Source of the DNA: a virus
DNA: 25,747 nucleotides
Reading direction: 5' to 3' (one strand)
Virus record (IMG/VR): IMGVR_UViG_3300028840_002714
Coordinates: 1-25,747 of that record
The notes under the pieces: generated by a model
Databases searched by the model: none
The model's input: only the letters and a program-made list of their open reading frames with translations
Told to the model about the DNA's origin: nothing
Translations under genes and position numbers: made by a program
Shown: positions 1-24,343 of the stretch, in pieces
How positions within the stretch are numbered: the first letter of the stretch is position 1
Layout: each line of letters opens with the position of its first letter

Positions 1-96
1 GGTATATGCATACGAGTTTTCGTGTACTTCCCGAAATTTTTTTTTCGAGGTAACACACAAACGTAAGTTACTGAATTTTAAGTATTTAAAAAAACC

Positions 97-768
97 ATGA
101 ATAAACCGAAACAATCATCAAATACCAAACGAGACAACACACATAACAGCCAGCCGAACAACTTAACAACCGTCAATGTCAAACGTACAGGTATAGGCTG
201 TCCGGGCCTAAAGAAATTCAAACTGAGCCAACTCAAAGAAAGCGAATACAATCCGAGAATAATCGACAACGAGACATTGCAAAGCCTGAAAAACTCAATA
301 AACCACTTCGGCTGTGTGGAACCGATAATAGTAAATGTAAGGCGTGGGCTTAATAGAATTGTCGGAGGCCATCAAAGATACAAAGTATTGAGCGAATTAA
401 AAGTGAAGGAGTGTATTTGCGTAACGGTGAATTGCAGCCAGTCGGAAGAAAAGCTGTTGAACATAACTTTGAACAATCAACACTTGCAGGGCAAGTTTAT
501 CGATAGCATTGCTGTTTATATCGACGAATTAAAAAGCCAATTGCCTGATTATCTGAATAAGCTTGATTTGAAAATTGAAAAATTGCGTGAACAGATCGGG
601 AAAAACGAAAAAAAGACAAAGCCGGCCTATGCAGAGGAAACTATAAAACCATACAAGAAAACTCATGTGCTTTTATCTTTTGAGCCAAAGTTACTTGTAA
701 AGATACTGCCACACCTGGAATCAATCCTGAAAGTTAAAGGCGTTCAATATGAACAGGGTTCGAACTGA
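97..768 (+). CDS. ParB/Spo0J-like nuclease-fold domain protein
   Basis: This 223-residue protein has a basic, Asn/Gln-rich N-terminal 35 residues, then a ParB N-terminal-type domain at about 40-125. Visible hallmarks are the YNPR strand (51-54), SLKNSINHFGCVEPIIV (63-79) and GGHQRYKVL (90-98), the counterpart of the ParB box that binds CTP or nucleotide in the family. There is no obvious C-terminal centromere-binding helix-turn-helix, and a lysine-rich helical linker leads to a short tail (about 185-223). Phage-borne ParB-fold proteins of this size commonly sit beside methyltransferases and are thought to act on DNA as nucleases or regulators rather than in partition. Here the next gene, a methyltransferase, overlaps its end by 20 bases, suggesting coupled translation. 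No clear Shine-Dalgarno site precedes the ATG. Fold assignment is firm; biochemical role is inference. Confidence 0.8.
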   Translation: MNKPKQSSNTKRDNTHNSQPNNLTTVNVKRTGIGCPGLKKFKLSQLKESEYNPRIIDNETLQSLKNSINHFGCVEPIIVNVRRGLNRIVGGHQRYKVLSELKVKECICVTVNCSQSEEKLLNITLNNQHLQGKFIDSIAVYIDELKSQLPDYLNKLDLKIEKLREQIGKNEKKTKPAYAEETIKPYKKTHVLLSFEPKLLVKILPHLESILKVKGVQYEQGSN

Positions 769-1306
769 TAATACATTTCTTGAAACGAAAATAAGATTGA
801 GACTCGACAATCTGCCGGCTGGTGATTGCAGAGTTTTAGATTGCTATGCCGGCACAGGTCTTATTTGGAGAACAATAAAAAAACGAAGCAAAAAAAAGAT
901 AAATGTTCTCGGCATTGAAATCGAAAACAGAGACGGAATATATTTGCAGGGTGACAATAGAAAGTTTCTGTCGTCGATGGATTTAAGTGCTTTTAATGTG
1001 ATAGACCTTGACGCTTACGGTGTACCGTATGACCAGCTGAGGATAATATTTTCGAAAAAGCCCAGGCCTGAGGCTGTTATATTTGTGACATTCATTCAAA
1101 TAATGTACGGCGGTTTGCCACACGGCATGTTAAGGGACATCGGATACAAAACATCGATGATTAACAAGTGTCCGGCATTGTTCTATAAAAACGGCTTTGA
1201 AAAATTCAAGCAGTACCTTGCATTTAACGGAATCGGACAAATCAGGCACTATTCGCATCAAAAAAAACATTATTTGTGTTTTAAGATAAAAAAAAGCGGC
1301 TCATAA
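749..1306 (+). CDS. SAM-dependent methyltransferase (Rossmann fold, DLDAYG motif)
   Basis: 185 residues. SAM-binding motif I is visible as VLDCYAGTG (29-37), an acidic post-motif-I strand as GIEIEN (55-60), and a motif IV-like segment as NVIDLDAYG (83-91). The DLDAYG form recalls the D-D-P-[FY]-G catalytic loop of the Trm1/RsmD-like RNA methyltransferases more than the DPPY or NPPY loop of adenine or cytosine DNA methylases, so the substrate (DNA or RNA) is open. It has no separate target-recognition domain, so sequence-specific DNA methylation of the restriction type is unlikely. It overlaps the ParB-like gene by 20 bases and has an AAAGG Shine-Dalgarno-like stretch about 10 bases upstream, within the ParB-like coding region. 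Together they look like a two-gene module. Enzyme class is well supported; substrate is not. Confidence 0.75.
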   Translation: MNRVRTDNTFLETKIRLRLDNLPAGDCRVLDCYAGTGLIWRTIKKRSKKKINVLGIEIENRDGIYLQGDNRKFLSSMDLSAFNVIDLDAYGVPYDQLRIIFSKKPRPEAVIFVTFIQIMYGGLPHGMLRDIGYKTSMINKCPALFYKNGFEKFKQYLAFNGIGQIRHYSHQKKHYLCFKIKKSGS

Positions 1307-1360
1307 AGATTGACTATACGCACGCTTACGGGAAAAGCGGAAAAAGCAGCCAGTTTTTCG

Positions 1361-1389
1361 TTGACAAAAACGCCATAAGTCGTTATTGT
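1361..1389 (+). promoter_or_regulatory. Candidate sigma70 promoter
   Basis: A perfect TTGACA (1361-1366) is followed after 17 bases by TATTGT (1384-1389), which matches four of six -10 consensus positions. It lies in the 137-base gap before the clamp-loader-like gene at 1444, so it would drive the operon beginning there. A second TATAAG at 1389-1394 is too far from the -35 box. Host sigma-factor preference is unknown. Confidence 0.55.
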
Positions 1390-1443
1390 ATAAGAAGTTA
1401 TGAACTTTTGATAATAACAAAAAACATACAGAAAGGACAAGTT

Positions 1444-2094
1444 ATGGCGAATATTTACGAAAAATACAGACCAAAGAAGTGGTCACAGGTAAAGGGACAA
1501 TCGAGAGCCGTACAAATCATCAGGCAGATGAAACAGAGAGGGCTTGCCGGCAGAGCTTTTTGGATTAGCGGTATATCCGGAAGTGGCAAGACAACGATTG
1601 CAAGACTAATCGCCAGCGAAGTCGCAGACGAGCTTTTTACAAAAGAATTTGACAGTGCAGAGGAATTTAACCAGGAAGCTTATCAGGAAGTTGAGCGGGA
1701 AATGTATCTTTACGGCGGCGGCAAAAAGCGTGGCCGTGCTTTCATCATTAATGAAGCACACGGATTAAGAGTGTGGATGATCAGACGCTTGCTCGGATTG
1801 CTTGAACGAATACCGAAGCATGTTGTTTTTATCTTCACGACAACGAAGGCAGGACAGGCCGGATTGTTCGAACAACAAATCGATGCCGGACCACTTTTGA
1901 GTAGGTGTGTAAACATTCCGCTCAATAGTAACGACGGTTTGGCTAAAGTTTTCGCTAAGCATTGTAAAAGAATCGCCGAGGCCGAAGGTCTGGACGGAAA
2001 ACCGCTTTCAGTCTATATCGAACTTGCCAGGGAATTAAAGAACAATTGCAGAGCTATGCTTATGGCAGTCGAATCAGGACAGATGATTAAATGA
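1444..2094 (+). CDS. Clamp-loader-like AAA+ ATPase (RFC/DnaX type)
   Basis: 216 residues from the ATG at 1444, chosen because AGAAAGGACA (about 1431-1440) gives a good Shine-Dalgarno site and the family signature YEKYRPKKWSQVKGQ begins at residue 5. An in-frame ATG at 1408 lacks a good site. AAA+ motifs appear in order: Walker A GISGSGKT (43-50), Walker B FIINEAH (100-106), sensor 1 around FIFTTT (129-134), the clamp-loader SRC motif LLSRC (151-155) and a sensor-2-like CRAML helix (202-206). Walker B reads NEAH where DEAH or DExH is usual. The Cys4 zinc module of bacterial DnaX and a collar domain are missing, making it much shorter than DnaX. No DNA polymerase or sliding clamp is in the window, so it may act with host subunits. 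Family placement is good; role is inferred. Confidence 0.8.
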   Translation: MANIYEKYRPKKWSQVKGQSRAVQIIRQMKQRGLAGRAFWISGISGSGKTTIARLIASEVADELFTKEFDSAEEFNQEAYQEVEREMYLYGGGKKRGRAFIINEAHGLRVWMIRRLLGLLERIPKHVVFIFTTTKAGQAGLFEQQIDAGPLLSRCVNIPLNSNDGLAKVFAKHCKRIAEAEGLDGKPLSVYIELARELKNNCRAMLMAVESGQMIK

Positions 2095-2108
2095 AAGGAG
2101 AGTGAAAA

Positions 2109-2945
2109 ATGATTTACAGAATTGGAGCCGACGGATTAGAAAATATAAGTGTTACAGAAGATGACAATAAAAACAACCTGCCAGTAGGTACAATCCTACA
2201 GCTGAATGGCTATGACAATCCGCGATACGTGATAATCAAGAACCTCGGAGTACATGAAAGGTACAGAAGTCACGGTGCTCGATACATGACGGTCAAGCTT
2301 GATGATTACACGTTTTCTCAGCATGATGCGTTCTCGATGAATCATATCGACACGAAGAAAGACAATCGAATCCACATGTATTACACGTCCGAAGTTATGC
2401 CGGAAGATAAGGTGCTTGAAATCTGGGAAAAAGCAAAACTGGTAGAACAACAAAAAAAGGAAGCGAAGGAAAAGGCCGAAAAGATTGCAGCTGAAAAAAA
2501 AGCCCGGGGACGTAAGCTGTTCGAAAAACATATTCCGCCAGAGGCACAGGCATTAATTGTCGCCAAGTGCGAACGCGATGATTGTGATTTGCAGACAGAC
2601 TATTTTGCGACATCGACGACGGCGACTGTGATTCTCGGATGGTCGAAACACAAGCGGGATTTGTTTTCTGAAATGCGTAAACACGCGGACCGGATATCGG
2701 AAACGGCACATCTTAAAAACAAACCCACAGTCGATTCAAACAATGAACCAAAGACGGAGCAAAATAAATCATGGTGGCATCCAAAAGACGAACACCGCGA
2801 AAAATACAGCATGGGAAAAGGCTACTATCTTAAAGACGGCAATGCTTATTCGACTGGATGGCTGATTCAAAAAGTGTGCAAATATCAAGACTGGTCACCA
2901 AGTCTTTATATCTCAATGGCCGAACGATGCATATTTGAGAAGTAA
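2109..2945 (+). CDS. Accessory protein of unknown function with conserved C-terminal domain
   Basis: 278 residues, with a strong AAAGGAG site just upstream of the ATG. The N-terminal third (1-100) is beta-rich. A highly charged coiled-coil-like helix follows (about 104-140, rich in Lys, Glu and Ala). The C-terminal half contains TDYFATSTTATVILGWSKH, LFSEMRKHA and the EHREKYSMGKGYYL block near residue 235. That combination of strings is familiar from proteins carried on mobile elements and phages, but I do not know a demonstrated function. It is 14 bases downstream of the AAA+ gene and so probably in the same operon. No catalytic motif can be named. Confidence 0.6.
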   Translation: MIYRIGADGLENISVTEDDNKNNLPVGTILQLNGYDNPRYVIIKNLGVHERYRSHGARYMTVKLDDYTFSQHDAFSMNHIDTKKDNRIHMYYTSEVMPEDKVLEIWEKAKLVEQQKKEAKEKAEKIAAEKKARGRKLFEKHIPPEAQALIVAKCERDDCDLQTDYFATSTTATVILGWSKHKRDLFSEMRKHADRISETAHLKNKPTVDSNNEPKTEQNKSWWHPKDEHREKYSMGKGYYLKDGNAYSTGWLIQKVCKYQDWSPSLYISMAERCIFEK

Positions 2946-2964
2946 TGGAAAGGAAGTGACAGAA

Positions 2965-3267
2965 ATGGAAAATACATTAGTTGTCGAAAAATCGATTCAC
3001 GAAATAGCAAAAAGGGCAAACATTGAAATCGACAAAGTTGATTTAGGCATAACATTGAACGTGGCAATGAATGACGAACAGGTCAGAGACCTGGTTGCGA
3101 TGATGGGATTTTTGGTCGGTCAACAAATGGAGCCCGGGCAAATACTGGCAGAGTTGTATCACGACTTAAACGCTTTCAAACAAATACATCTTAATCCTGG
3201 TACTGAAAGATGTTTTTCGCCGAGGTCAGCGGGATACGCACAAAAGGTATTGCGTTCGCAAATATAA
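2965..3267 (+). CDS. Small protein of unknown function
   Basis: 100 residues from the ATG at 2965, which is preceded by GGAAAGGAAG. The longer in-frame reading from a TTG at 2935 would overlap the previous gene and lacks a better site. It is mildly acidic and predicted mainly helical (MNDEQVRDLVAMMGFLVGQQ). No recognisable domain, signal peptide or membrane segment is seen. It is followed at once by the tRNA-like hairpin. Confidence 0.55.
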   Translation: MENTLVVEKSIHEIAKRANIEIDKVDLGITLNVAMNDEQVRDLVAMMGFLVGQQMEPGQILAELYHDLNAFKQIHLNPGTERCFSPRSAGYAQKVLRSQI

Positions 3268-3274
3268 GAAAACA

Positions 3275-3313
3275 GCCCCGAACGGAACGCCGGTTCGACT
3301 CCGGCACGGGGCA
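3275..3313 (+). ncRNA. tRNA-like minihelix (T-arm plus acceptor stem remnant)
   Basis: An outer stem GCCCCG (3275-3280) pairs with CGGGGC (3307-3312). Inside it is a perfect T-arm: GCCGG (3289-3293), loop TTCGACT (3294-3300), CCGGC (3301-3305). One base after the T-stem the 3' acceptor-type strand begins, as in a tRNA, and A3313 would be the discriminator base. CCA is not encoded. Only eight bases (AACGGAAC) occupy the place of the D and anticodon arms, so it cannot be a working canonical tRNA. It could be a tRNA relic, the tRNA 3' end carried by an attachment site, or an mRNA hairpin between two genes. There is no U-tract, so a terminator is unlikely. Confidence 0.45.
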
Positions 3314-3344
3314 TTATTAAAAATAAATTTGAGGGATAAAAACA

Positions 3345-3692
3345 ATGGCAACATATAGTTTCAATCAGAAGAAAACAAGAGAGCTACAAACGGCAATACA
3401 AAACGCTCCGGAAGGATATGAAGCATTTTTTCAGCCAACACATCATAGAGGTTGCGTCCAAGTATTGAGGTTCACTGACAAGGAAAAATACAAAACTGAT
3501 TATTGTGTCAACACGTTCAGATCGCGAGACATCAATCACGAAGCTTTTTATAAAAAACTATCAGTGACAGAGAATGATGTTTTGGAATTAAGCCAGGAAT
3601 GGATTGACATGATATTAAAAGCCAAGAGGCTTAAATTCTACGCGAACAAAAGAAAAGGCCGAGTAATTGTTCGGCTGAGAATATTCAAATAA
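3345..3692 (+). CDS. Small basic protein of unknown function
   Basis: 115 residues, ATG preceded by GAGGG. It is rich in Lys and Arg, especially in the last 25 residues (AKRLKFYANKRKGRVIVRL), which could bind nucleic acid, but no named motif is present. It lies between the tRNA-like hairpin and the radical-SAM gene in a co-directional run. I do not recognise a family. Confidence 0.55.
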   Translation: MATYSFNQKKTRELQTAIQNAPEGYEAFFQPTHHRGCVQVLRFTDKEKYKTDYCVNTFRSRDINHEAFYKKLSVTENDVLELSQEWIDMILKAKRLKFYANKRKGRVIVRLRIFK

Positions 3693-3726
3693 ACAGACAA
3701 AAGAACATATTAGAGAAAGGATTAAC

Positions 3727-4482
3727 ATGCCAGTAATTTACAGACCCAGTGGAAGGGCGCTCGAGTATTCATTTCTTGCGTTAAATCATTATATAGGCTG
3801 CACGCATGGTTGTTTTTATTGCTATGTGCCTACAATGCCATTATTCAAAGAACGTGACTTTACAAATCCGGACGTTAGGCCGGATATAATTAACAGGATC
3901 GAAAAAGAAGCTCCACGATATGCAGGTACGAACGAACGCGTTTTATTATGCTTCACGTGTGACCCATATCAGCCAATTGATAAAAAAGAAAAAGTCACCA
4001 GGTCAGTTATTAGAGTTTTGAGAAAGTACAATATACCTTTTCAAATTTTGACCAAAGGCGGCCTTAGAGCCAAAAGAGATTTTGATTTATATGGAGCAAG
4101 AGACGCGTTCGCAACAACATTAACTTTTATAAAAGAAGATGATTCTAAAAAACACGAACCGAACGCAGCAACGCCAGGCAATAGAATAAAAGCATTGATT
4201 GAGGCTCATAGTCAGGGGATTGAAACGTGGGTTAGCCTCGAACCGGTTATCGACATAAGACAGACTTTGGAATTGATCGAGATAACTCAAAACTGTGTTG
4301 ATTATTATAAAATCGGAAAACTTAATCACCTAAAGAGCGATATAAACTGGCGGGATTTCGGAATCGAAGCAATAAGAATTTGTGAGAAGTACAATAAACC
4401 ATATTACATCAAAGATGACCTTGCATATCATTTGAACGGAATCGAATTTACAAATACAGACAAACGATTAGCAACTATATAA
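3727..4482 (+). CDS. Radical-SAM protein, SplB/photolyase-like family
   Basis: 251 residues, with AGAAAGGA upstream of the ATG. The Fe-S cluster motif CTHGCFYC (Cys25, Cys29, Cys32) is the CxxxCxxC signature of radical-SAM enzymes. The N-terminal YSFLALNHYIGCTHGCFYCY, the FTCDPYQP segment, QILTKGG and WVSLEPV follow the barrel layout of the SplB-type group, which includes spore photoproduct lyase and many uncharacterised relatives. It would use SAM and a [4Fe-4S] cluster to make a 5'-deoxyadenosyl radical. Its length fits the small SplB-like members without extra domains. Substrate is unknown: DNA repair, nucleotide or tRNA modification are all possible. It ends two bases before the terminase small-subunit ATG. 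Enzyme superfamily is certain; function is not. Confidence 0.85.
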   Translation: MPVIYRPSGRALEYSFLALNHYIGCTHGCFYCYVPTMPLFKERDFTNPDVRPDIINRIEKEAPRYAGTNERVLLCFTCDPYQPIDKKEKVTRSVIRVLRKYNIPFQILTKGGLRAKRDFDLYGARDAFATTLTFIKEDDSKKHEPNAATPGNRIKALIEAHSQGIETWVSLEPVIDIRQTLELIEITQNCVDYYKIGKLNHLKSDINWRDFGIEAIRICEKYNKPYYIKDDLAYHLNGIEFTNTDKRLATI

Positions 4483-4484
4483 AC

Positions 4485-5651
4485 ATGGCCAAGGATGATA
4501 TTAGTGAAGTTGCTTGGCGGCAGAGATATTTAGTTCTGTTGCAGAAAGTCAGTTCTGGGGACACATTGTCAAAGAGTGAGCTTACAGAGCTAAGAAAATA
4601 TGAGCGCCTATCCGAAAAGAGCAAATCCAAAAAAAAGCCATTAATCATCGATAGAAAACCAACTGACAGGTCACGCAAATCTAAAAAGAAAAAAGCCAAA
4701 GGGAAAAGTAATTCATCACCGGTATCGCCGGCGGACGTAAAACTTTTAGGCCTTGAATGTGACAGCTTGACCGAGGCTGATGCGGCATTGAAAACAGAAG
4801 TATCGTTGAGTGAGCTTTTCATAAAATTTCCGAAACTAAGGAAGGCATGGGACAGAGGCAGATTGCTAAGAAATCTCAGAGACTTTGCAAGAACAGGGAC
4901 AAGCATATCCGCAGCGGCTAAGAAGTTAAAATATAACAACGGCCAGCAGCTGAGGGAAATTATCGACGGCGATTCTGAGCTTAGTGACTTGTGGGAACAA
5001 ACAAACCTCGAATTGCATTTTGAGATTAGGTCGGCAATTATCGAGGAAGCCAAACAGGGAAATCTAAAAGCTCTTAAAACCGTTGACGGTTTACTGTCAC
5101 AGGACGAAGAAATCAAATCGGTTGATTTTTCTCATGTATCGGTACAGGAGCTTGCTGATTTGACATGCAAGAGCAGAAAAACAATATATGAATGGTTCGG
5201 GAAAGGTTTGCCCAGGAACGAAGATAAAACGGTTGACCTTAGTATATTTTTGACGTGGTACGAAAACTATTTGATTCAAAGAAACGGCAAAGGCATAAAG
5301 GATTTTTCAAGCTCAACAGACCCGTTAAGAAGTATCAGAGCGGAGAAATTAAGAGTAGAGCTTAACAAACATCGAAATCAGTTACTGGACAGGGACGAAG
5401 TTATCATGGGACAGATCGCGTGGGTTCAGAACATTCTGGATTTCTGCAAAAAGGGCGTTGAGAGTTTGGCAAGAATGTGCGTAAGCCAGCCGCGGGAAAA
5501 AATTATTGAGATATTAAAAGTATTTTTCAGTGACTTACATGGAGAGTCATCGAAAGTGCCGCATGAATTAAAACTACCGGAAGAAAAAGAAAAGCAGCTG
5601 AGAGAGTTTTTGCTTAGCTTAAAGCCGCACGATAAAAAAGATGATACTTAA
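4485..5651 (+). CDS. Terminase small subunit, Nu1-like C-terminal half with long N-terminal extension
   Basis: 388 residues. Residues about 218-310 resemble lambda gpNu1: a winged helix (VSVQELADLTCKSRKTIYEW), an LTWYENYL helix corresponding to the gpNu1 WYAE segment, and RAEKLRVELNK, where small subunits enter their coiled region. In the family this part binds the packaging site and recruits the large subunit. gpNu1 is about 180 residues, so the first ~215 residues are extra: a Lys/Ser-rich disordered stretch (43-80) and a second helix-turn-helix-like part (ARTGTSISAAAKKLKYNN, 135-152). The large terminase gene overlaps its end by 11 bases, which is the expected order. There is no clear Shine-Dalgarno site, so translation may be coupled to the upstream gene. 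Confidence 0.75.
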   Translation: MAKDDISEVAWRQRYLVLLQKVSSGDTLSKSELTELRKYERLSEKSKSKKKPLIIDRKPTDRSRKSKKKKAKGKSNSSPVSPADVKLLGLECDSLTEADAALKTEVSLSELFIKFPKLRKAWDRGRLLRNLRDFARTGTSISAAAKKLKYNNGQQLREIIDGDSELSDLWEQTNLELHFEIRSAIIEEAKQGNLKALKTVDGLLSQDEEIKSVDFSHVSVQELADLTCKSRKTIYEWFGKGLPRNEDKTVDLSIFLTWYENYLIQRNGKGIKDFSSSTDPLRSIRAEKLRVELNKHRNQLLDRDEVIMGQIAWVQNILDFCKKGVESLARMCVSQPREKIIEILKVFFSDLHGESSKVPHELKLPEEKEKQLREFLLSLKPHDKKDDT

Positions 5652-17991: not shown

Positions 17992-19965
17992 ATGGCAGCA
18001 AGTGACTTAAAACGCAGAATCGTTGCTCAATTCTCAGCTGAGAATAAAGCCAAGGGTGTAATAGCCGGTTTTCGTCAAGACCTTGACTCGACAGGCAGGA
18101 CGATGCGTCGTATGGCTTCAAGCGTTTTGGCGCTTGCCGGCATTGGTGGTTTAGGTTATCTGCTCAAGCAGACGATGTCATCTATAGACCGTATGGCTAA
18201 GATGTCAGACGAGTTGCATATATCAACGGAGGCCCTGGGCGGTTTAGAACACGCGGCAAAAATAAGCGGCACAAGTATTGAAAATCTGCACAAGGGTTTG
18301 GAAATATTTGTCCGCCGGATGGGTGAAGCGAAGCACGGAATTGGTGAGGGTGTCCGCGGCCTTGAAATGCTCGGCATGTCAGCTGATGAAGTTATCTCGA
18401 TGGGTACAGAGAAAGCTTTCATGGAGATAGCTGAAAGGATATCCGAGGCAGGTACAGCAGCTGAACAGGCCGGCATTGCTTATAACTTTTTTGGCCGTCA
18501 AGGTATGCAATTATTAAATATGTTCCAGCAGGGTAAAGTTGGAATTGAGGAATTAACAGACGAAGCCGAGAAATTAGGGCTTACGTTTTCACGTCTTGAC
18601 GCGGCGAAAGTCGAGGCCGCCAACGATGCATTAACCCGGGCCCGGGGTGTTATAACCGGACTTGTTAGATCGGCGACAATAGAGCTTGCCCCATACATAG
18701 AAGTCCTGGCGACTAAATTTGTTGACTTGGCGACATCAGGCGAGGGGATGGGACATAATGTCACGAACGTATTTGAATTAATGACACAAGCGGCCGTAAG
18801 GTTAGGCTCTACAATACAAATGCTCGGTGTCAGACATAAGCAGATAAACGCTATTGCTCTGGAAGGTATGGCCAAGTATTTTGGATTTTTGGAAAAGATT
18901 GATTTTATCCCGCAATTCAAAGGGATGGAATATTTATTTAAAAAGAAGTTTGGAGTAGGCTTCGGCGAATTTAGCGAGACACTTCGTGAAGAGGCTAAAG
19001 AATGGAAAAGCGAGCTTGCAGACCTTGAAAAAACTACAAAAGAAAAAACCAGTCAGGTAGAAAAGTTTTTTGATGATTTGAGATCCAAAGCTGAGCAGAG
19101 AAGAATCGAGCTTGAGAAAAAATCAACAGAACGCATGGCAGCTTACGGCGGCACAATAGATTTGGATGTTTCGACTGATGATAAATGGGAACAATACTGG
19201 AATAATCTGCCATACGAAAAATCGTATCAGGCCATGCAGGAAAGGATGGCTAAACAAAAATATGAGACGAGCCTTGCTGTCACTACTAAAATAATGGAGG
19301 AGGAGAAAAAACAGGCTGAGCAATTGGAGAGGTGGCAAAAAGAACACAACTTGAAAAAGGCTGAGGAACAACTCGAATTGATGCAAAATCAAATTGCAAA
19401 ACGCGAAGAAATGGAAAAACAGTCAGCTGAAAGGCGTAAGCGAATAGCGGAGGATGTCGCATTGAGCATGGCCCGGGGCTGGACAAATGCACTTGACCGG
19501 ATGATGTTCGAAGGTCAAAAGTTCTGGGATTCGATGAAACAAATGTCACGCAGTCTTATACGTGAAATTGCTAATATAATACTTTATAAAAAAGTTGCTG
19601 AGCCTATTGCTTATAGTCTTATGGGATTAATGCCAACAGGTCAAACAAAATATGGCCAGTATGAATTACCAACGGTTGGTAAAGTGCCTTCAGCGGCCGG
19701 GGGTACAATGGCAAAATATCAAACCGGTGGATTAGCTAAAGAAACAGGACCGGCCTGGCTTCATATTGGAGAGGAAGTATTAAGACCGGATCAAAGACGT
19801 TCTGGTGACATAGAATTTCATGTCCATAACGAAGGAAACGACAAGCTCGAAGTTACCAGGTCGGAACAATATATATTTAGCGACAAACGTATTATTGATG
19901 TCACTATGGGTGCAATGTCAACAAACGTTCAATATCAGATGGCAATTGCAAGGGCGGCAAGGTAA
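17992..19965 (+). CDS. Tail tape measure protein
   Basis: 657 residues. The N-terminus has the family pattern: LKRRIVAQFSAENKAKGVIAGFRQ, then DSTGRTMRRMASSVLALAGIGGLGYLL (hydrophobic, 36-56) and the conserved ELHISTEALGGLEHAAKISGTSIENL block, followed by EAGTAAEQAGIAYNFFGRQG. A long central coiled coil (about 320-500, Lys/Glu/Gln-rich) and a C-terminal lambda-H-like part (MARGWTNALDRMMFEG through IREIANIILYKK) follow, ending with IEFHVHNEGN. It sets tail length; at roughly 0.15 nm per residue it predicts a tail near 100 nm. There is no Shine-Dalgarno site just before the ATG (a run of A and T), unlike neighbouring genes, so its low expression may be built in. Confidence 0.9.
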   Translation: MAASDLKRRIVAQFSAENKAKGVIAGFRQDLDSTGRTMRRMASSVLALAGIGGLGYLLKQTMSSIDRMAKMSDELHISTEALGGLEHAAKISGTSIENLHKGLEIFVRRMGEAKHGIGEGVRGLEMLGMSADEVISMGTEKAFMEIAERISEAGTAAEQAGIAYNFFGRQGMQLLNMFQQGKVGIEELTDEAEKLGLTFSRLDAAKVEAANDALTRARGVITGLVRSATIELAPYIEVLATKFVDLATSGEGMGHNVTNVFELMTQAAVRLGSTIQMLGVRHKQINAIALEGMAKYFGFLEKIDFIPQFKGMEYLFKKKFGVGFGEFSETLREEAKEWKSELADLEKTTKEKTSQVEKFFDDLRSKAEQRRIELEKKSTERMAAYGGTIDLDVSTDDKWEQYWNNLPYEKSYQAMQERMAKQKYETSLAVTTKIMEEEKKQAEQLERWQKEHNLKKAEEQLELMQNQIAKREEMEKQSAERRKRIAEDVALSMARGWTNALDRMMFEGQKFWDSMKQMSRSLIREIANIILYKKVAEPIAYSLMGLMPTGQTKYGQYELPTVGKVPSAAGGTMAKYQTGGLAKETGPAWLHIGEEVLRPDQRRSGDIEFHVHNEGNDKLEVTRSEQYIFSDKRIIDVTMGAMSTNVQYQMAIARAAR

Positions 19966-19973
19966 AGTAAATC

Positions 19974-20459
19974 ATGGCAGATATAACAGTAACACCGTCA
20001 ACATTAGAATTGAGTCTTACGATTGAAAGTGTGACTTTGCCAGGTGCGGAGCATATCGAATATCCGTCAACATTAGCACTTGACTTGCAGGTGAAATCCC
20101 CAAAGCTGCTTTGTCAATTTCCAATATTAACAAGAGATCCGAATTTGAATTTCAGGGATGAGCCATCAGCCGGATCGGTGTTATTAGGTGAAACAGGTTC
20201 AGGATATCCGGTATTAAATAAAATCAATACATTTAACGGCAGAGATATCGAATTCGACATGCCGTCTGTGCCGGATGCTGATAAAGTTCAGTATATTGCA
20301 TTTTACGAGGCCAACAAAGACACATATTTTCCATGGTACAACAAGCAGGACGGAGTGACATATAATGTGATTTTTGCCGAAAGGCCGAGATGCAGACTTG
20401 CGGATGGCATAGGTGACACATGGAACATGACTTTTCATTTTATTCAAGTCAGTGATTAA
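19974..20459 (+). CDS. Minor tail protein, M-like, with N-terminal repeat units
   Basis: 161 residues. Residues about 6-43 are two diverged copies of the 22-residue repeat found in the L-like protein (VTPSTLELSLTIES and EYPSTLALDLQVKSP). The rest, from LLCQFPILTRDPNLNFRDEP to the ending DTWNMTFHFIQVSD, has the beta pattern of tail-tip proteins of the lambda M/DUF2460 type: a GSGYPVLNKIN start, a substrate-like WYNKQDGVTYNV loop and final strands. Its place directly after the tape measure is that of lambda M. It starts eight bases after the tape measure, preceded by AAGG. Fold assignment is moderate; the repeat match is visible. Confidence 0.55.
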   Translation: MADITVTPSTLELSLTIESVTLPGAEHIEYPSTLALDLQVKSPKLLCQFPILTRDPNLNFRDEPSAGSVLLGETGSGYPVLNKINTFNGRDIEFDMPSVPDADKVQYIAFYEANKDTYFPWYNKQDGVTYNVIFAERPRCRLADGIGDTWNMTFHFIQVSD

Positions 20460-20727: not shown

Positions 20728-21141
20728 ATGGCTTCGGGAATTTACGACAGATACAAAGCTAATCTTATGAACAAAGAAGTTGATATGGAAGCGGACACTA
20801 TCAAGGTCATGTTACTTGATAACAGTCACAGCTTTACATCAACACATAATCAGAAATCGGAAATTGTCGCAAATGAGATTTCTGGAACCGGTTATACGGC
20901 CGGTGGTGAAGCTTTGACAACCAAGGCGGTAACGCAGGGTGCAACAACGAAGTTTGATGCAGATGATACTCAATGGACAAGCGCCTCTTTCACTGCCTAT
21001 CATGCAGTTATCTATGATGACACTTTAACTAATGATGATTTGATTGCTTCCATAGATTTTGGTGGTGCTAAACAAGTCACTTCCGGCACGTTTACTATTC
21101 AGTGGCACGCGAACGGAATTCTCACTCTGGCGACTGTATAG
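20728..21141 (+). CDS. Conserved phage virion-type protein
   Basis: 137 residues with AAAGGTGA before the ATG. The pattern IYDRYKANLMNKEVDMEADTIKVMLL, then NEISGTGYTAGGEALTTKAVTQ and FDADDTQWTSASFTAYHAVIYDDT, ending in IDFGGAKQVTSGTFTIQWHANGILTLA, recurs in many tailed phages among tail genes as an all-beta protein. It may coat the tail or be a tip/fibre accessory. A terminator follows, so it probably ends a transcription unit. Confidence 0.65.
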   Translation: MASGIYDRYKANLMNKEVDMEADTIKVMLLDNSHSFTSTHNQKSEIVANEISGTGYTAGGEALTTKAVTQGATTKFDADDTQWTSASFTAYHAVIYDDTLTNDDLIASIDFGGAKQVTSGTFTIQWHANGILTLATV

Positions 21142-21238: not shown

Positions 21239-21493
21239 ATGGCCGAGTTATTAATATTAGACATTGATAACTGGATGGACAAATTGCCAGCCGCCGAGTT
21301 GGCAGAAAAACTGAAAGACGCAGCGTTCAAAGCAAAATACGATATGCGATCTCAGTCAGGTGACGTAGTGGAAATCCGGGAAGATGGTGGCTTTAAGAAC
21401 GCCGACAAATACACAAAGTTCAGGGTTGTCAAGCTGCCTGGCGTAAAGAAGGATGATGTCATGTATCTGCTTGCCGCGGACTGGACAAAGTGA
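21239..21493 (+). CDS. Small conserved phage protein of unknown function
   Basis: 84 residues with GGAG before the ATG. It begins LLILDIDNWMDKLPAAELAEKLKDAAFKAKYDMR and is followed by a beta part (GDVVEIREDG, YTKFRVVKLPGV). Such proteins are seen in tail-fibre or tip regions, where some are small structural or chaperone subunits; I cannot say more. Its stop codon overlaps a GTG start of a tiny ORF. Confidence 0.5.
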   Translation: MAELLILDIDNWMDKLPAAELAEKLKDAAFKAKYDMRSQSGDVVEIREDGGFKNADKYTKFRVVKLPGVKKDDVMYLLAADWTK

Positions 21494-21597
21494 CAATAAG
21501 CCACAAGAAAAGATTTAGTGTCACTTCTGGTGCCGGCAAAAAAATAGAGGTTGTAAATAGCATTAATGAATTATCCGTGACTGACAAGAAGGTTTAA
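21490..21597 (+). CDS. Tiny basic ORF linking two tail-tip genes
   Basis: 35 codons from a GTG start at 21490. It overlaps the previous stop in GTGA and the next start in TAATG, both signs of translational coupling. The product is short, basic and Thr/Val/Lys-rich (TISHKKRFSVTSGAGKK). It may be a real peptide or only a ribosome bridge that delivers ribosomes to the L-like gene. No family is recognised. Confidence 0.4.
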   Translation: MTISHKKRFSVTSGAGKKIEVVNSINELSVTDKKV

Positions 21598-23978
21598 TGG
21601 CACAAGTAATCAGATATGTTGACCCGGACGCAACGGGTGCTAACAACGGTACTTCGTGGGCTGATGCCTATACATCGCTGAGTGCGTGGGAATCCGCAGA
21701 GCAGACAGACCTGGTCAGTGACGGTGACTATCACACAGTGTACTGTCGATCCTCAGGGGGAACAGATGATACGACTTATGTCGTTATCAACGGCTGGAAT
21801 ACAGGTGTATCTAATTACATAGAGATCATAGGCAATGACTTCCCCTCAAATGCACAATGGGATGGAACTAAATATGTTATTGGGACATCAGCCACTTATG
21901 ATATCGCAATTTACGAGCAGTACGTTTATATTATAAACATTCAAGATGCCCCAACTGCTGGATCAGGAATCTACCCGACCGTAGCGAATTGCTATATCGA
22001 TTCTTGTTATCTTAACGGTGGAAATAATTCGGTCATTGGCGTCAACAATCAAAGTGGTGGTACGGTTTATATTTACAACACTATCCTTGAAGATGGTAGC
22101 CAGGCTGTTAAAAATTATGGCACTGCATATATTTACAATTGCACTATTTATGATTGGTCAGGTCAGGGTATTTATAATATCTCAGGAGGGACATTAACAG
22201 CTAAAAACTGCGCTGTAGGTAATTGTGGTGATGATTTTCTAAATAGCGGCTCTATAACAATAGATTACTGCTGTTCTGATGATGGCGATGGAACGAACTC
22301 ACAGAATCCATCAGGTAGTAATTGGGATAATGAATTTACTACTCCAGGCACGGACTTTTCGCTTGAGAGTGGCGGTAATTGCGTCGGTAATGGTACGGAT
22401 GACCCAGGAAGCGGGTTATATTCTGACGATATCATAGGAACATCAAGAACAAGCACTTGGGACATTGGAGCTTTTGAATTAACAAGCGGTGATGAAACAG
22501 TAACACCGTCTGCCCAGGCATTGGGTGCTACATTACAAAGCCCGACGGTTGTTGTAGATTGCACAGTCACGCCGAGCACTCTTGCATTAGGAATGACACT
22601 TGAAACGCCAACTGTTTTGGCCGGTGTAATAGTCACGCCCTCTGCTCTCGATCTGGGCTTAACGCTCGAAACACCTACTCCGGTCATCGATTGCACAGTC
22701 ACACCCTCTGCTCTTGATTTAGGATTAACACTTGAAACACCTACGCCGGTCATAGATTGCACAGTCACGCCGAGTACTCTTGCATTAGGAATGACACTTG
22801 AAACCCCTACTGTTTTGGCCGGCGTAATAGTCACGCCCTCTGCCCTCGATTTAGGCTTAACACTTGAGACACCGACATTGGTGATTAATTCTATTGTTAC
22901 ACCGTCAACGCTGGATTTAGGCATTTCACTTGAAACGCCGACAGTATTTGCCGGCATAGCAGTCACGCCCTCGGCTCTTGATTTGGGCTTAACACTTGAA
23001 ACACCTACGATAATTGTCGATTGCACGGTTACGCCCTCGGCTCTTGACCTTGGATTAACAATTGAAACGCCGAGTGTTTACGCTGGATCGATAATCACTC
23101 CGAACGCCCTTGATCTGGGCTTAACACTTGAAACACCTACAATATCTATCGATTGCACAGTCACGCCCTCTGCTCTCGCTTTGAGCATAACAGTTGAAAC
23201 GCCAAATGTGCTAACAGACAATTTATTTTCTCCGAGCACATTTGCATTAGGTTTAACACTTGAGACACCTACAATTTTAACGACAACAAATTTCGTGGCC
23301 CCGCCAACTTTAGAAATGGGGATGACTTTACATGAGCCAACGATAATAACCCGCTTTACTGATATTCCGCCGGCAATGGAAGAAACATTGATAGACCCGT
23401 ATTTCGGCGGTGCCTGGCTGTGGCTGTGTGAAGTTGTAATGATCGGGCAGGATACCATAAGAATCGCACGCAATACAGACGATGTAGATTATGATAGAGA
23501 GACATTCTTAAAATCAAACTTCAAAATTGGAGAGCAAATATTTAGCGGTGATGGAACCATCCCCAGAGTGACATTGCGAGTCGCACAAGACGCGAATCGT
23601 TTAATGGAAACATTGATCAATGACACCGAAGGTGCTCTGGGTGCAAATATAAAACTTATCAAAGTAAATGAGAATTTTCTAACAACGCCGGTATCGGCCT
23701 TGGAGTATGACTATGACGCCCTGTCTTCTGAAAGTGACACAGAATATGTGACATTAACCCTCGGTATTCCGAACCCATTAACTCAAAGATTTCCTTTGAG
23801 GTTATACAGTAGCAAGAAATGTTGGAAGGCAACACCGACATTATTCAAAGGTCCGGAGTGTCAATATGCAGGTGCGGACTCAACATGTACCGGTACTTAT
23901 GAGGATTGTTATTTAAAAGGAAACGCGGTTAATTGGGGCGGCGAATTGGGGCTGGACCCGAACGTGTTAAAGGTATGA
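21597..23978 (+). CDS. Tail-tip L-like protein fused to beta-helix-like domain and 22-residue tandem repeats
   Basis: 793 residues, far longer than lambda gpL (232). Three parts are visible. Residues 1-300 are Asn/Gly/Tyr/Ser-rich and start like secreted or phage beta-helix proteins (IRYVDPDATGANNGTSWADAY), with many short strands such as VYIYNTI and AYIYNCTIY, fitting a right-handed parallel beta-helix. Residues 302-588 are 13 copies of a 22-residue repeat (VTPSALDLGLTLETPT plus six variable residues). Residues about 600-793 carry the gpL-type C-terminal domain, including a four-cysteine set (Cys742, Cys755, Cys764, Cys771) and a WGGELG end, as in gpL homologues that bind an iron-sulfur cluster. 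It lies just before the K-like gene as in lambda. A tail-tip hub with an added host-surface binding domain is inferred. Confidence 0.8.
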   Translation: MAQVIRYVDPDATGANNGTSWADAYTSLSAWESAEQTDLVSDGDYHTVYCRSSGGTDDTTYVVINGWNTGVSNYIEIIGNDFPSNAQWDGTKYVIGTSATYDIAIYEQYVYIINIQDAPTAGSGIYPTVANCYIDSCYLNGGNNSVIGVNNQSGGTVYIYNTILEDGSQAVKNYGTAYIYNCTIYDWSGQGIYNISGGTLTAKNCAVGNCGDDFLNSGSITIDYCCSDDGDGTNSQNPSGSNWDNEFTTPGTDFSLESGGNCVGNGTDDPGSGLYSDDIIGTSRTSTWDIGAFELTSGDETVTPSAQALGATLQSPTVVVDCTVTPSTLALGMTLETPTVLAGVIVTPSALDLGLTLETPTPVIDCTVTPSALDLGLTLETPTPVIDCTVTPSTLALGMTLETPTVLAGVIVTPSALDLGLTLETPTLVINSIVTPSTLDLGISLETPTVFAGIAVTPSALDLGLTLETPTIIVDCTVTPSALDLGLTIETPSVYAGSIITPNALDLGLTLETPTISIDCTVTPSALALSITVETPNVLTDNLFSPSTFALGLTLETPTILTTTNFVAPPTLEMGMTLHEPTIITRFTDIPPAMEETLIDPYFGGAWLWLCEVVMIGQDTIRIARNTDDVDYDRETFLKSNFKIGEQIFSGDGTIPRVTLRVAQDANRLMETLINDTEGALGANIKLIKVNENFLTTPVSALEYDYDALSSESDTEYVTLTLGIPNPLTQRFPLRLYSSKKCWKATPTLFKGPECQYAGADSTCTGTYEDCYLKGNAVNWGGELGLDPNVLKV
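22500..23360 (+). repeat. 13 tandem 66-bp coding repeats
   Basis: Thirteen units encode residues 302-588 of the L-like protein, each 66 bases except one carrying an extra codon before the last unit. Units 2 (from 22566) and 5 (from 22764) differ at only four of 66 bases, and units 3, 4 and 6 are likewise close, so a three-unit block was duplicated recently. Copies near both ends are more diverged, the pattern produced by internal gain and loss. Confidence 0.9.
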
Positions 23979-24343
23979 TTGCTAAACAAATACAAGAGAT
24001 ACTTAATGAACCATTTGGTCAGAACCTTGCCGGCCAAAGCAGAAAGTATGTCTGTTGGGCTTTTTGCCGGCATGTTTACAGATTGCTCGGCTTGCCTCGA
24101 TTAAAAAACTTACAACATCAAACGCAGATGAAAAAAATTGACAAGCCGGTTGTGCCATGCATTGTGCTTTTTAATATGGGCGGTGACTGGCATAGCGGAG
24201 TTGTCTATCCGGATACACTACATTTCATACATGCAACGCCGGTTGACATTAAAGACAGAAACACAAATCAATATGTGGCTTGCAGGGAGCGGTTGACCGG
24301 CTGGCCCTGGAGTTTAATAATCGAAGGTTATTATGAACCATGA
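23975..24343 (+). CDS. NlpC/P60-type peptidase domain, gpK-like
   Basis: 122 residues from the ATG at 23975, which overlaps the L-like stop in ATGA; an in-frame ATG at 23933 would overlap by 46 bases. Likely catalytic residues are Cys27 in YVCWAF, His73 in WHSGVV and His86 in FIHA, matching the Cys-His-His triad of NlpC/P60 fold enzymes. In lambda, gpK carries this domain next to an N-terminal MPN-type domain, which is absent here; the length fits the peptidase part alone. It would cut peptidoglycan stem peptides during entry or act in tail-tip assembly. Gene order L-K-I/J supports the call. Confidence 0.7.
   Translation: MIAKQIQEILNEPFGQNLAGQSRKYVCWAFCRHVYRLLGLPRLKNLQHQTQMKKIDKPVVPCIVLFNMGGDWHSGVVYPDTLHFIHATPVDIKDRNTNQYVACRERLTGWPWSLIIEGYYEP

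Follow-up and report, generated by a model that had tools for sequence, protein, structure and literature searches.

The window analyzed here, that is, the complete 25,747-base IMG/VR virus record IMGVR_UViG_3300028840_002714, carries tail genes in the order tape measure - M - L - K - J, with M assigned by position only (Table 1). The L position is occupied by a plus-strand ORF (21597-23978) of 793 codons that is uninterrupted by a stop and has a Shine-Dalgarno-like AAGAAGG ending 4 nt before its ATG. The 793 aa product consists, from the N-terminus, of a right-handed beta-helix (aa 1-297), 13 repeats that start at aa 302, and a hub domain (aa ~593-793), with about 590 aa preceding the hub. 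The protein is a fusion, namely, a hub of the phage lambda gpL type with an N-terminal arm, in which the folds of the hub and the beta-helix are those predicted by modeling. The unusual domain make-up of this ORF had been noticed in a sequence-only reading and was confirmed, with exact coordinates, by the agreement of repeats, models and profiles.

Table 1. Features of the tail region in the window
Feature	Coordinates	Strand	Basis
Tape measure protein, gpH equivalent	17992..19965	+	phrog_9483, E 8e-53
gpM-position (distal tail) protein	19974..20459	+	Follows the tape measure gene, the place of M in lambda and nickie; putative family
Tail-region protein	20728..21141	+	phrog_644, E 7.4e-33
Right-handed beta-helix head, predicted pectate-lyase-like fold, ending at 22487 in the motif STWDIGAFE	21597..22487	+	AlphaFold2, Foldseek
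Repeat stalk with 13 tandem units, each about 22 aa long, VTPSALDLGLTLETPTxxxDCT	22500..23366 (aa 302 to about 590)	+	Self-match, TRF
gpL hub domain I, predicted tube-like beta-sandwich	23373..23789 (aa about 593-731)	+	Foldseek, VIA, phrog_18
Four-cysteine C-terminal domain (Cys 742, 755, 764, 771), putative [4Fe-4S] site	23820..23975	+	Cysteine conservation
gpK-like NlpC/P60 peptidase	23975..24343	+	PF00877, E 0.0019, below cut-off; phrog_329, E 1.3e-5
gpJ central tail fibre, continues past the contig end	24333..25745	+	phrog_31, E 7.7e-60; PF24801, E 5.4e-15

Phage nickie also encodes the tape measure, the M-position protein, L, K and J in this order, and its L is a plain protein of 212 aa. 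In lambda, gpI is present and M and L are not separated by additional ORFs; the window contains three small ORFs between these two genes, absent from nickie as well, and no gpI was recognized in it. The gpM-position ORF has no Pfam or PHROG match. The ORF directly upstream of the hub gene (21239-21493) encodes 84 aa compared to 126 aa in the near-twin contig IMGVR_UViG_3300017963_000478 (L022), with which the window is otherwise identical. The difference is due to 22 bases missing from the window, through either a real deletion or an assembly difference. The start of the gpK-like gene overlaps the stop codon of the hub gene (ATGA). A gpK-like gene follows the hub in the window and in the related loci L023, L026, L030 and L031; in L028, L032, L033, L034, L038, L039 and L042, it was not seen, and a gpJ-like ORF comes directly after the hub.

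The assignment of the C-terminal part to gpL is based on PHROG and fold matches, invariant cysteines and gene order, and substantiates the earlier proposal that the last ~190 residues are of the gpL type with four cysteines. In the AlphaFold2 model used for the hub comparison (aa 298-793), the block values of pLDDT across hub domain I are 72-90, with a single dip to 51. Among solved structures, the best Foldseek match of the hub is lambda gpL (8iyk_L, E 4.5e-9), followed by T1, Sf11, JBD30 and T5 pb3, all at E <= 0.001 (9l9p_J, 3.7e-6; 9occ_F, 8.0e-6), and by the hubs of Chi, RcGTA and R4C at E 0.001-0.01. VIA aligned 8iyk_L over 191 residues (Z 14.4; rmsd 19.4 across both domains) and Sf11 9occ_F over 125 residues (Z 13.7, rmsd 2.8), and the agreement of the whole model with lambda gpL in Foldseek is modest (TMt 0.51, rmsd 19.7). 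Given that the model aligns from aa ~588 onward with residues 3-228 of lambda gpL, the arm joins the hub where lambda gpL starts.

At the sequence level, the hub domain alone matches phrog_18 (E 9.5e-11; 2e-151 for lambda gpL itself) and phrog_396 (5.1e-5); the full-length protein matches only phrog_396 (E 0.00059), with no match to PF05100 or phrog_18 at E 1. Against PF05100, the hub domain scores 18.2 bits versus the curated cut-off of 25, and among 10 relatives scanned, two pass (L025, with a hub domain 71% identical to that of the window, at 35.4, and L034 at 25.8), three score below the cut-off and five have no match. A sequence search of the PDB with the hub domain gave no match at E 1, and NCBIfam yielded no useful match for the protein.

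The four C-terminal cysteines are invariant in all 27 aligned hub domains (an alignment that omits the incomplete L043 and L044, L021 and L048, which are similar or identical to nickie (L020), the twin L022, and L062-L064), and a fifth hub cysteine, Cys611, is not conserved. Lambda gpL (PF05100, phrog_18, 8iyk_L) shares with the window protein the hub domain I fold, the four C-terminal cysteines and the tape measure - M - L - K - J gene order, but, at 232 aa, it has no arm, as had been pointed out, in contrast to the ~590 aa that precede the hub here. The spacing of the cysteines also differs, being 13/9/7 in the window protein and 9/23/7 in lambda according to the residue numbers in the available part of the lambda tail report (PMC10721106). 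The [4Fe-4S] cluster at these cysteines is putative: of the L-type fold with a metal site envisaged in the sequence-only reading, the hub domain I fold and the cysteines are supported, and a lambda-like fold of the Fe-S domain is likewise putative, this domain being modeled with a pLDDT of about 43-69.

The 13 tandem repeats reported ahead of the C-terminal domain start at aa 302, 324, 346 and so on through 567; repeats 1-11 are exactly 22 aa long, the 12th is 23 aa long and the 13th is without a sharp end. The mean BLOSUM62 self-match is 2.66 at lag 22 and 2.90 at lag 44, whereas none of 200 shuffles exceeded 0.12, and TRF recovers the same array from the DNA. The 11 full units differ mainly at silent sites (mean pN/pS 0.41, uncorrected for saturation; pN<pS in 55 of 55 pairs), and the codon-level comparison indicates that the repeats are under protein-level constraint. 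The stalk is modeled with low confidence (pLDDT about 47-68), such that the suggested division of the first 590 residues into separate domains is supported for the beta-helix (pLDDT 83), the repeats being at most a candidate domain. Foldseek and VIA likened the stalk to the HK620 tailspike and CsgA solenoids; these matches were set aside because of the low pLDDT and because AlphaFold tends to build solenoids out of near-perfect repeats.

Across 19 stalk regions, which were delimited by eye and are not 19 independent cases given that many belong to the stalk class of the window, 18 show their strongest self-match at a period of 20 or 22 or at a doubling of one of these, although the sequence classes differ. 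This period beats every shuffle in 16 of the 18 regions, the exceptions being L025 and L030; the one remaining region, that of the serine-rich L050, follows a different period. Among loci of the window's stalk class, the number of repeats ranges from 1 to 11 by a conservative motif count, which is an undercount given that it found only 11 of the 13 units in the window. The L050 hub ORF (3-5621) encodes 1872 aa or more, of which Ser/Pro-rich SPSAS repeats make up about 1280 aa, followed by LamG and then the hub.

The AlphaFold2 model of the head (built from 10 sequences) has a mean pLDDT of 83.3. Its top PDB match in Foldseek, and the only one at E <= 0.001, is the pectate lyase Pel9A (1ru4; E 8.2e-5, TMq 0.55, rmsd 8.9), with rhamnogalacturonan lyases next at E 0.0013. 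Structural proteins of phages and a tail fibre are among the matches in BFVD, and the weaker viral matches, with E of about 0.01, comprise, among others, a tail spike and a K1 capsule depolymerase. The match of the head to PF13229 (E 0.023) is under the cut-off; that of L004 is above it. The lyases among the closest solved folds, together with the viral depolymerase and tail spike, speak for the possibility that the arm is a depolymerase, the beta-helix acting as a polysaccharide lyase on capsule or exopolysaccharide, in which case the hub would carry an enzyme and not a simple adhesin. We consider this somewhat unlikely. The invariant or nearly invariant columns of 10 aligned beta-helix relatives include one Arg and no Lys, so that no common lyase-type catalytic set is apparent, and these columns revealed no conserved active or binding site; furthermore, other relatives substitute LamG or F5/8C, usually binding folds, for the head. 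Activity toward glycans is common among LamG, F5/8C and pectate-lyase-like beta-helix folds.

A tblastn search of cultured phages for the beta-helix gave no match at E 0.01. Beta-helix modules akin to the head of the window (48% identity in L004, 47% in L005) occur elsewhere as standalone proteins or in other fusions. In L004 (3992-6172), the 48%-identical module is joined to another kind of tail protein (phrog_1082, E 6e-89), a fusion which suggests that the head domain may be mobile; in L006 and L009, such modules are joined to other repeats.

Relatives of the hub protein were collected by pattern-seeded hub-domain scans, which were not exhaustive. Among the 29 rows analyzed (L022-L050), 24 and the fragment L044 group with the window in a clade of uncultivated phages, and L045-L048 form the outgroup; L062-L064 were left out of the arm count. 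Two scans of genome contigs for possible hosts found no hub-domain relatives, with the limitation that distant relatives can escape the short peptide seeds used. When the full L003 protein was compared to cultured phages, four records matched, all within query aa 303-753 (repeats and LamG, outside the hub), and the one that was inspected is a hypothetical protein adjoining a capsid gene. The start of the protein is bounded by an upstream stop in 16 clade rows (near-twin L022 included), of which 13 have an arm of 107-759 aa and three (L026, L031 and L038) have 20-27 aa before the hub; the remaining eight clade rows are truncated by the end of the contig and show 1 to 1666 aa ahead of the hub. 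Given these three armless members, the arm is not essential to hub function. The short-armed L031 has a separate 535-aa LamG gene upstream (2304-3911), as though head and hub were encoded separately; in L026 and L038, the only ORFs between M and L are of 70-133 aa.

The nearly unarmed relatives also fit a scheme whereby an internal start near codon 598, or proteolysis, yields an unarmed gpL ring, with the armed form being a minority or a separate protein. Codon 598 is a TTG with GGAAG 5 nt upstream, so that unarmed gpL might also be made. Nevertheless, we regard a dual product as unlikely, considering the Shine-Dalgarno-like sequence at the full-length start, the poor internal alternatives (by eye, candidates 567, 574, 576 and 594 have no well-placed signal and 615 has a weak GAAG) and the protein-level constraint on the repeats.

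The fusion itself, sought in other phages as had been proposed, is present in other phage contigs with a variable number of repeats. Beta-helix, repeats and hub occur in the same order in L003/L032, L037 and L040, with identities of 40-53% for the heads and 49-62% for the hubs. Since the window consists of one metagenomic contig and the near-twin was likewise recovered from metagenomic data, a chimeric contig joining unrelated genes had to be considered; this possibility was rejected as extremely improbable in view of the recurrent domain order and of the near-twin, which has 0 mismatches to the window in the hub gene.

Within the set of relatives, the hubs are 47-75% identical to that of the window while the heads and the stalks (period 20 or 22) change. 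Beta-helix heads were identified by alignment to the head of the window in L022, L032, L037 and L040, and LamG (PF13385) is above the cut-off in L023, L025, L028, L030, L033, L034, L036 and L050 as well as in L003 (equivalent to L032), which combines a beta-helix head with a LamG domain inside the stalk. L035 has an F5/8C head (PF00754), L039 and L042 have repeats alone before the hub, and the head of L043 is of no assigned type. When mapped on a hub tree of 28 rows, with strong support on only 4 of 25 inner branches, the head label changes at least 9 times (19 labelled rows, 6 states) and the stalk class at least 10 times (22 rows, 7 states); these figures are counts only, without a shuffle control, and the labels were assigned by eye, with L032 scored as beta-helix despite its LamG and the short SASD-like start of L038 scored as no stalk. 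In the pair L023 and L025, the hubs are 78% identical, but the LamG heads are only 26% identical and the stalk classes differ; a counter-example is the pair L033 and L034, in which the hubs and heads are both 56% identical. Thus, related hubs carry different heads and stalks.

The reading that we favor, and consider probable, is that the arm is an adhesin on a lambda-type hub and that the N-terminus of gpL is a site at which adhesin arms are exchanged. A more elaborate version, in which this N-terminus serves as a dedicated plug-in site where heads swap independently of stalk cassettes, the 20- and 22-residue classes, unrelated as they look, are interchangeable and adopt one rod fold (having the same even period), and a matching pair of repeats on the adjacent gpM-type ring protein helps anchor or orient the arms, is possible but rather doubtful.

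The gpM repeats in question comprise the first ~45 aa of the gpM-position protein (19974-20108), where two 22-aa repeats of the VTPSxLxL class of the stalk are found. Repeats of the window's class are also present on the gpM-position proteins of L030, L033, L034 and L043, so that two such repeats occur in five of the seven loci with the window's stalk class versus none of the eight with another class or no stalk (Fisher p 0.007; read by eye in loci with a visible gene, the rows being non-independent). This association could mean that gpM and gpL interact, and it speaks for a reading of the arm as a collar or spacer that serves assembly or tail stability and not adhesion. Such a role appears quite improbable given the lectin- or lyase-like character of the heads and their rapid exchange, the existence of nearly unarmed relatives, and the derivation of the M-L association from related, non-independent sequences.

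If the arm is an adhesin, as we favor, each copy of gpL would extend a stalk of 20-22-residue repeats tipped by the beta-helix head, the arms leaving the tail ring with their heads held toward the host. Lambda gpL is present in three copies in the last tail ring, according to the available part of the same report (PMC10721106), and we infer three arms per virion, oriented outward, with their reach set by the number of repeats. The head would bind, or possibly trim, the host surface polysaccharide before the committed contact is made by gpJ, glycan binding being inferred from the folds of the heads. Heads and stalk cassettes would be swapped and the number of repeats altered while the hub is conserved, and different heads on the same hub probably provide grip on different host surfaces. 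Should this be the case, host-surface contact evolves not only at the fibres and gpJ but also at gpL, which is usually treated as a conserved structural part; a simple sequence rule, a long N-terminal arm before a gpL domain, would find adhesins overlooked by annotation; and the relatives, which differ in head and stalk length but share one hub, would constitute a natural series for testing the effects of reach and specificity on adsorption.

Several known systems bear on the originality of this arrangement. In the RcGTA hub g13 and the hub of roseophage R4C, an oligosaccharide-binding domain splits the Fe-S domain into two halves, as described in the available parts of the respective reports (PMC7296036, PMC10276861). 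These gpL-type Fe-S hubs thus resemble the window protein in bearing a putative sugar-binding module; as far as those parts describe it, however, that module is one small internal insert, unlike the long, stalked N-terminal arm exchanged among relatives of the window. The evolved Dit and Tal proteins of siphophages of Gram-positive bacteria, in the accessible sections of PMC7291167, carry CBMs in the loops of the Dit galectin domain or in the Tal N-terminal domain. They are similarly core tail-tip ring proteins decorated with carbohydrate-binding modules, but, on that description, the carrier is Dit or Tal instead of gpL and the module is not terminal on a repeat stalk. Given that its carrier is of the gpL type, the window arm may be said to work like evolved Dit and Tal without being a member of that group. 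The LSH1 paper, in its available portion (PMC13243795), describes variable additions around the gpL/gpJ junction. A literature search, which covered titles and abstract openings among the matches listed, found no description of a stalked or N-terminally armed gpL. The sequence-only reading had called this an unusual route to adhesion; that view has to be qualified, and the surprise is lowered, by the sugar-binding inserts of RcGTA and R4C, as far as the available parts of those reports go, and by additions of ~180 residues to gpL in two cultured phages. The N-terminal, stalked and exchangeable gpL arm is new in form; the principle of a decorated tail-tip ring is already known.

These two phages emerged from a survey of 18 cultured gpL records that were selected by eye for host diversity and are neither random nor exhaustive (15 from 60 listed of 1506 lambda-gpL matches and 3 from 7 L025 matches). 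With starts as annotated, 16 of the 18 proteins are 221-259 aa long and two are 421-423 aa long, namely, those of Klebsiella phage vB_KpnS_Op1_ER4 (423 aa, PF05100 E 3.6e-43) and Enterobacter phage ATCEA23 (421 aa, 5.1e-44). Both resemble the window protein in carrying extra residues on a member of the gpL family, but the addition amounts to about 180 residues ahead of the PF05100 match and contains no repeat stalk; as read by eye from the sequences, it appears to be inserted behind the first strand of hub domain I. In the corresponding records, the extended gpL (L085, 2757-4022, in ATCEA23; L086, 3549-4820, in Op1_ER4) is annotated merely as a minor tail protein.
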